Of a stretch of 64,000 nt of DNA, positions 33,530-35,206 are shown piece by piece. The position numbers and the translations under genes are program-made. The notes below the pieces were generated by a model, which was not told the origin of the DNA, did no database searches, and worked only from the letters and a program-made list of their open reading frames with translations. Source of the stretch: Thermoplasmata archaeon (lineage in GTDB: Archaea; Thermoplasmatota; Thermoplasmata; Thermoplasmatales; GCA-001856825); the NCBI GenBank assembly GCA_021817415.1, contig JAKAUZ010000080.1, forward strand, positions 1-64,000. Reading direction: 5' to 3'. How positions within the stretch are numbered: position 1 is the stretch's first letter; every line of letters begins with the position of its first letter.

Positions 33530-33679
33530 TTACTGTCCTCCCCTCTTCTCTTTGGCTTTAAGTCTCAGTTCTTTGCTCCCACACTTTCTGCATTTCTTAG
33601 CCTTTATGGGATTTGACGCATAACAGTTCATGCATATCTTCTTGTTGAACAGTCTGTCAGTGGCTTCTTTGAATGGCAT
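33530..33679 (-). CDS. rpl40e: Ribosomal protein L40e (missed by ORF track)
   Basis: [49 protein letters not shown] (49 aa, CxxC...CxxC). Confidence 0.95.
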
Positions 33680-34076: not shown

Positions 34077-34241
34077 ATGGAAGAACTTCTGGTCCATTTT
34101 GACATTTTTTCAGATAATAAGAAATTCGTGGCAAAGGTCAAGAGCGAGATGGGTGGGTTGAGGGAATTTTCTGCAAGGAATATTGAAAAACTGATGGAGC
34201 AGGTAACAGTGGATATTAGTGAGGAGTTCGAAAACATCTGA
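34077..34241 (+). CDS. Small ORF (54 aa) immediately upstream of the Cas4-like gene
   Basis: MEELLVHFDIFSDNKKFVAKVKSEMGGLREFSARNIEKLMEQVTVDISEEFENI*; 5-nt gap to next start; AAAATATATATACC TATA-like box about 25 nt upstream. Confidence 0.65.
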   Translation: MEELLVHFDIFSDNKKFVAKVKSEMGGLREFSARNIEKLMEQVTVDISEEFENI

Positions 34242-34246
34242 AAAAA

Positions 34247-35206
34247 ATGAAAGATTATTTTTCCGTGAGTGATGTAGAGAGATTTGCCTATTGCCCATTA
34301 AATTACCTTCTATATCTGGAAGGAGTCAGGGCCGAATCATCCAAAGGTGAAGAATACCATAAAGGCATAATGGAAAGGATTTCCGCTAACTTGATTTTAC
34401 AATCCAGGACAAATTATCTCAATAAGGCTTTCTTTTTCATTTCTGTATTCACCCTCTTTCCGCTCTTTCTGTTCTTTTATGATACTCTGGTTGGCAAAAT
34501 TGATTTTTTCTTTATTCTGCTTTTATCCTTGGTAACCATATACATTTCGATCTGGTTTTATTTGCTGTCCACATATTTCGACTTGACCAAGTATAAGAAT
34601 GTTGATGGAATTATTCTATTCTTCACTCTCTCTTCTTTATTCTTTCTCTTCTTTGCCATAGTAATTCTGAAACTGAGTTATTTCTTGATTCCAATCCTTA
34701 TTTTGTCGGCTGATCTACTTCTTCTGGTAGAGTCCTTTATCTACTATAACATTCTAAAAAACGTCCGCATTATAAGTAAACTTCCCAAGGAAGAGAAGAA
34801 TGTGCAATACCATGATGATGGTGAAGCTGAATTGCTCGTCAGCGAAAAGTGGGGGTTACGGGGAAGGCCAGACATTTTGGCCGAAATTGAGGGAGAGATA
34901 GTTCCAGTAGAGATCAAGAGCAGCAATAAGCCTAAGGTGAGGCCTTTTTCGCACGTAATGCAGCTCACGGCCTATGCCGTTCTTGTTGAAGAGGTGTACG
35001 GAAGACAAGTCAATTATGGAATTTTGAAATATCCACAAGGAGATATCCAGATCGAGATAGATGAAAATATCAGGTTAACCCTGGCTTCAATGCTGGAAAG
35101 AATGCAGGAAGTAAGAACGTCCAGACAAGCACACAGAAACCACAACAATGTGGGCAAGTGTATGGGGTGCTACAGGAGAAATAAATGTCCTGAGGCACTG
35201 AGCTAG
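34247..35206 (+). CDS. Cas4/PD-(D/E)XK family nuclease with internal multi-TM insertion
   Basis: FAYCPLNYLLY, EYHKGIM, GLRGRPDIL, PVEIKSS, QLTAYAVLVEE, C-terminal CMGCYRRNKC; strongly hydrophobic ~110-aa segment between the H and D motifs. Confidence 0.85.
   Translation: MKDYFSVSDVERFAYCPLNYLLYLEGVRAESSKGEEYHKGIMERISANLILQSRTNYLNKAFFFISVFTLFPLFLFFYDTLVGKIDFFFILLLSLVTIYISIWFYLLSTYFDLTKYKNVDGIILFFTLSSLFFLFFAIVILKLSYFLIPILILSADLLLLVESFIYYNILKNVRIISKLPKEEKNVQYHDDGEAELLVSEKWGLRGRPDILAEIEGEIVPVEIKSSNKPKVRPFSHVMQLTAYAVLVEEVYGRQVNYGILKYPQGDIQIEIDENIRLTLASMLERMQEVRTSRQAHRNHNNVGKCMGCYRRNKCPEALS

Follow-up and report, generated by a model that had tools for sequence, protein, structure and literature searches.

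A transmembrane Cas4-like protein of Thermoplasmatota, likely a membrane variant of solo-Cas4

Introduction

Cas4 proteins are already known to occur outside CRISPR loci, and these solo-Cas4 proteins are widespread in archaea with their function still open (PMC5704561). That phylogenomics paper makes no mention of a transmembrane form. Nor did we find a membrane-bound Cas4 described in the literature that we searched; most subscription papers lay outside it, and a prior description is not excluded. A second family that enters this analysis is TPD/CDIN1, predicted to be a PD-(D/E)XK, Holliday-resolvase-like nuclease; its human member CDIN1 (C15ORF41) is a disease protein in which nuclease activity could not be demonstrated (PMC7261414). 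Here we analyse a gene (34247..35206, + strand, stop codon included, 319 aa) in a 64,000-nucleotide stretch of DNA from a Thermoplasmata archaeon, the whole of which is referred to as the window. Its product, termed TM-Cas4, is likely a membrane variant of the already known solo-Cas4, and apparently one that has not been described.

Results

Gene, motifs and fold

The nuclease is encoded in two parts. The N-terminal half (34247..34426) carries the first Fe-S cysteine, C16 (34292-34294), and H38 (34358-34360), and AF2 begins the protein with helices at residues 7-15, 17-24 and 32-81. The C-terminal core (34802..35203), identified by profiles, alignment, AF2, Foldseek and HMM alignment to 4ic1, 8d3l and 4r5q, contains GRPD at residues 206-209 (34862-34873; D209 at 34871-34873), E222-I-K224-S (34910-34921; E222 at 34910-34912, K224 at 34916-34918), Q239xxxY243 (34961-34975) and the other three Fe-S cysteines as C305xxC308x5C314 (35159, 35168 and 35186). 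Profile searches gave matches to Pfam Cas_Cas4 (PF01930; 1e-10, 42.2 bits against a cut-off of 22.7), PDDEXK_1 (3.5e-10) and NCBIfam TIGR00372 (76.5 bits against a cut-off of 65). It may be added that the Cas_Cas4 and TIGR00372 matches are confined to residues ~197-315, because about 120 largely hydrophobic residues split off the N-terminal part.

In an alignment of 31 proteins C16, G34, S199, G206, P208, D209, K224, H236, Y243, H296, C305, C308 and C314 are invariant, as is the YC at the first Fe-S cysteine, and H38, E222 and Q239 are nearly so (Q replaces H38 in the sister genomes G036 and G037). Alignments also showed the catalytic and Fe-S residues to be kept phylum-wide. When the protein is aligned by HMM and sequence to SSO0001 (4ic1), 8d3l and Pcal_0546 (4r5q), the active-site residues fall in register with all three and the cysteines with 8d3l and Pcal_0546.

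AF2 models a Cas4 core plus a four-helix bundle both for the window protein (mean pLDDT 80; core mostly >88, TM part about 57-76) and for an Aciduliprofundum-type homologue, L009, where 67 sequences gave a mean pLDDT of 91.4 and block averages of 85-98 in the four long helices. For both models Foldseek places Cas4 structures first in the PDB (8d3q/8d3l and SSO0001, 4ic1), followed by Dna2, MGME1 and ACE1. The protein thus meets the criteria of the Cas4 family, namely the H, D, ExK and QxxxY residues, four Fe-S cysteines (one N-terminal and three C-terminal) and a Cas4/RecB-type fold. That it is a DNA exonuclease with an Fe-S cluster is inferred by analogy with characterised Cas4s, there being no biochemistry.

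The membrane insertion

Between the H and D motifs (residues ~61-161) lie four 19-residue windows with a Kyte-Doolittle mean of 1.9-2.8, which form the membrane insertion (34427..34729): TM1 at residues 61-79 (34427-34483), TM2 at 89-107 (34511-34567), TM3 at 122-140 (34610-34666) and TM4 at 143-161 (34673-34729). The corresponding AF2 helices span residues 32-81, 86-110, 119-141 and 147-177. The insertion is not a chance feature, since it recurs in homologues of only about 30% identity and AF2 models its helices.

The four helices are two duplicated hairpins. Hairpin 1 (TM1-2) is homologous to hairpin 2 (TM3-4) with an hhalign probability of 98.5% (E 3e-15); the comparison against shuffles gave a mean z of 7.3, and the hairpin pairs a forward mean score of 65.4 against 31.6 for reversed controls. 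The pair in the window protein itself has diverged (z 2.5). Across versions of the protein the number of TM helices is 2, 4 or 8, and no odd number was seen among those with both nuclease halves readable. One hairpin is present in families f38, f44, f47 and f66 and four hairpins in f7, f20, f43, f59 and f63, with f58 apparently also of the long type, its N-terminus being cut off in the ORF read. On the core tree the 2-, 4- and 8-TM versions are interleaved, so repeated hairpin gain or loss is probable.

The density of K+R is 0.26 in the loop between TM2 and TM3, as opposed to 0.04 in loop 1-2 and 0.08 in loop 3-4. An even helix number puts the N- and C-terminal nuclease halves on one side of the membrane and the charge bias tells which; by the positive-inside rule both halves are likely cytosolic, an inference made from sequence alone. 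Among five pairs compared for dN/dS, four gave 0.03-0.07 and the fifth 0.22, with a looser TM part (0.35) in this fifth pair. In 3 of the 5 the TM part is constrained about as strongly as the nuclease part. The insertion, which has near-invariant tryptophans, is under purifying selection.

The earlier note, made before any search, had called this reading frame and its Cas4 signatures, and both held exactly. Its hydrophobic multi-TM insertion between the H and D motifs (put at about 34424..34780) also held, now as four helices at 34427..34729. It had proposed AlphaFold modelling, which supports the TM helices and the Cas4 nuclease fold, and had stated that a soluble fold of the insertion would refute it; this was not borne out, as hydropathy, positive-inside bias, repeated TM hairpins and AF2 all show.

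Distribution of the family

Relatives were found by scanning genome contigs with an alignment as query; a scan with a single protein gave none. A full-length homologue is present in 18 genomes of the order. Of 400 genomes in the class, 282 gave a match of some kind, and most families include a full-length version (about 330 aa); homologues with the insertion also occur in further classes of the phylum (Thermoplasmatota). Among the named carriers are DHVE2/Aciduliprofundum, Methanomassiliicoccales and many Thermoplasmatota MAGs; out of 170 relatives, the 80 named matches considered are either of this kind or titled only in general terms, e.g., 'archaeon' or 'Euryarchaeota archaeon'. The insertion is found in over a hundred genomes, complete chromosomes included, and the gene is mostly single-copy. 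In some families it is missing or a 1-TM paralogue is present instead, so it is not essential everywhere.

A second Cas4-like protein of the window's own genome (G000:C2:19527-20000, L002; ~190 aa) has 1 TM helix and lacks the N-terminal Cys/H half, which is the form also found in family f6.

Viral contigs and phages yielded no relative, and the only plasmid matches were three from Bacillus, restricted to the nuclease core of Dna2/Cas4 proteins without the TM part. A viral or plasmid origin (MGE-Cas4) was rejected, as no relative carrying the insertion came from any of these sources.

Independence from CRISPR

Screening of the window and of 201 sequences (1.6 Mb) with a simple exact-repeat script revealed no CRISPR-like array. 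The own genome has a single Cas1 match, on another contig than the TM-Cas4 gene. Among the 18 carriers in the order Cas1 was found in 10 and not in the other 8, which include genomes 91-96% complete, and in G006 and G007, whose genomes are complete, 81 kb and 0.7 Mb separate TM-Cas4 from the closest cas1. Many CRISPR-bearing genomes have their own CAS-Cas4 directly beside cas1. In the tree, built from 139 columns by a quick method and weak in its inner branching, the TM-Cas4 clade is split from CAS-Cas4 with SH-aLRT 100. The criterion for a solo-Cas4, a gene outside any CRISPR-cas locus, is therefore met (no cas1 nearby, no arrays), and neither of those for a CAS-Cas4, that is, cas1/cas2 linkage and grouping with CAS-Cas4 in the tree. 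TM-Cas4 is not CRISPR-linked, as judged by its separate clade and by its distance from cas1 in the genomes where the two were mapped.

The Cas1 ORF of the own genome (G000:C25:9128-9700, L032) looks like an orphan, with only profile positions 93-281 matched and no Cas4 in the 3.6 kb read.

Neighbouring genes

Two nucleases recur beside TM-Cas4. A TPD gene (PF14811, CDIN1-like) lies directly upstream on the same strand in 55 of the 75 genomes listing both (hand count), in nine families (f8, f11, f14, f23, f24, f32, f33, f34 and f35), and the TPD proteins retain KTPD...ESK. In 24 genomes of six other families (f19, f22, f25, f27, f28 and f30; hand count) the gene directly upstream is LTD-PLD (HKD), whose product combines lamin tail domain(s) and two HKD motifs with a signal peptide and a C-terminal TM helix; in G006 and G007 (family f3) it is found 1.3 kb downstream. 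The two arrangements never occur in one family in the lists compared. These counts are of related genomes and not of independent events, yet linkage over nine and six families goes far beyond chance adjacency. Many carriers have LTD-HKD and TPD genes unlinked to TM-Cas4, and neither was found in the window's own genome, so the partners are not required everywhere. Apart from TPD no replication or repair gene showed recurrent linkage among the 80 named loci.

Other neighbours were rejected as partners. The genes glmS/glmU, a 2-TM protein and MtnA reflect lineage synteny, the first two being convergent. A gene for a conserved 54-aa protein (34077..34241, +, stop codon included) ends 5 nt before the TM-Cas4 start, and the two are likely co-transcribed in the window. 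It lies beside cas4 in G036-G038; of the order's 117 genomes 105 carry it, for the most part away from cas4. Being a near-universal small protein of the order, it was not accepted as a specific partner. It has no Pfam match and its function is unassigned.

Some further observations were made on the surroundings. No RNA features or tRNAs were found in the window, and an ORF at 33530-33679 (-), too small to appear in the ORF list, resembles ribosomal protein L40e (CxxC...CxxC). In an Aciduliprofundum-type locus (L122:2245-5220) the genes that come after cas4 on its strand encode an apparent metallo-beta-lactamase-fold hydrolase, a small membrane protein and LTD-HKD. Of 400 genomes in the class, 267 encode CDIN1/C15ORF41-like TPD proteins (e.g., L091:9169-9960 and L129:7576-8358), and these may offer a simple system for studying the CDIN1 family, and a Methanosarcina control genome was matched by both the Cas4 and the TPD families.

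Discussion

The proposal of the earlier note that a nuclease is tethered at the membrane outside CRISPR adaptation is supported. Its report of no cas1/cas2 or repeats in the window held, and linkage of all homologues to CRISPR adaptation genes, which it had named as a refutation, was not encountered; the homologues with the same insertion for which it suggested a search were found across class and phylum. The process it named (DNA uptake, degradation of incoming DNA, or repair) remains inference, which the partner nucleases narrow without settling.

TM-Cas4 is very likely an active nuclease anchored in the membrane, although both location and activity are predicted, without biochemistry. The explanation we favour, though at no better than about even odds, is an Fe-S exonuclease that works at the inner membrane face, most likely on DNA entering the cell. 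The N- and C-terminal cytosolic parts would join into one Fe-S-containing Cas4/RecB-type active site, and the even number of TM helices inserted at the joint, grown by hairpin duplication, would clamp the enzyme to the inner face. By inference from characterised Cas4s it would be an exonuclease that needs metal and attacks free DNA ends; that the DNA it acts on lies at the membrane or is passing through it is likewise inferred. The variable hairpin number suggests an anchor rather than a dedicated channel. In the six LTD-HKD families a relay may operate, whereby the surface-anchored LTD-PLD nuclease cuts DNA outside the cell and TM-Cas4 degrades the strands emerging at the inner face, which could serve either to scavenge nutrients or to destroy invading DNA. 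In the nine TPD families its partner would be the TPD nuclease, in the cytosol. The secreted LTD-PLD points to DNA encountered at the envelope; the TPD partner fits either incoming-DNA processing or repair. The ComEC competence domain (PF03772) was found in 0 of 31 related genomes, so uptake of the ComEC type is unlikely and the route of DNA entry is unidentified. A bolder reading, no more than a possibility, is an undescribed phylum-wide archaeal envelope system that, independently of both ComEC and CRISPR, takes up and digests, or blocks, foreign DNA; its conceivable layout has LTD-PLD outside, TM-Cas4 at the inner face and a cytosolic nuclease of the CDIN1 type.

The main rival to the incoming-DNA role is a housekeeping nuclease of repair or replication that processes flaps or ends in the manner of Dna2/MGME1 and sits at the membrane at a site of nucleoid or fork attachment. 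In its favour TM-Cas4 is phylum-wide, mostly single-copy and under purifying selection, Dna2 and MGME1 are among its best structural relatives, the TPD/CDIN1 neighbour is predicted to be Holliday-resolvase-like (PMC7261414), and no virus or plasmid copy has the TM part. However, it does not account for the six families in which the gene is linked to that of a secreted LTD-PLD nuclease anchored at the surface, and TPD is the only repair-type gene recurrently linked among the 80 named loci. We hold it to be a serious alternative, though less likely than not.

A helper of CRISPR adaptation in trans, trimming prespacers, is very unlikely. The solo-Cas4 of P. furiosus does process the non-PAM prespacer end (cited in PMC12538437), Cas1 is present in 10 of the 18 carriers of the order, and the own genome's Cas1 has no adjacent Cas4 in the stretch read. 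But 8 of the 18 carriers lack Cas1, some being 91-96% complete, many CRISPR genomes keep a CAS-Cas4 beside cas1 with TM-Cas4 in a separate clade, and cas1 is at least 81 kb away in two complete genomes. We have as little confidence in a main function of the membrane part, e.g., as channel or sensor, with the Cas4 core mainly binding nucleic acid or Fe-S: the constraint on the TM part in 3 of 5 pairs and its tryptophans would agree, but the active-site D, E and K are essentially invariant, and hairpins varying from 1 to 4 suit an anchor better than a conserved channel. That this is an ordinary soluble Cas4, its insertion an assembly error, fusion artefact or buried hydrophobic core, is practically ruled out: more than a hundred genomes share the insertion, complete chromosomes among them, and the AF2 and repeat evidence contradicts it as well. 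No support for it was found, though the window comes from a draft genome in 88 contigs.

A Cas4 locked to the membrane, with recurrent nuclease neighbours, gives the solo-Cas4 question a predicted place, the inner membrane face, and named partners that can be tested. The TPD linkage provides an archaeal genomic context for CDIN1. It may also be noted that 'CRISPR-associated protein Cas4', the label that automatic annotation will give to the family, is misleading.

Comparison with known systems

ACE1 (9iab), an Argonaute-associated Cas4-family protein, shares the non-CRISPR Cas4-type nuclease fold; it is a solved protein of 266 aa that matches over the nuclease and has different genetic partners, and the insertion was not compared in detail. 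Dna2 and MGME1 are alike in the RecB/Cas4-type nuclease fold by Foldseek, but TM-Cas4 has no helicase and has the membrane insertion. CAS-Cas4 (8d3l, 7mi4) agrees in fold and motifs, whereas TM-Cas4 is not beside cas1/cas2, forms a separate clade and has the insertion. The 1-TM Cas4-like paralogues of the order (C2:19527-20000; f6) are the nearest group in the tree and have a membrane helix directly before the core; in contrast to TM-Cas4 this is a single N-terminal helix, and the N-terminal Cys/H half is absent. The closest described system is solo-Cas4 (COG1468/PF01930; SSO0001, Pcal_0546 and M. mazei Solo-Cas4), which is alike in the Cas4 core, the four Fe-S cysteines, the D-E-K active site, the non-CRISPR location and a distribution that follows lineage. 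From solo-Cas4 as treated in PMC5704561 TM-Cas4 differs in having 2, 4 or 8 TM helices inside the fold and, in many families, fixed nuclease neighbours.
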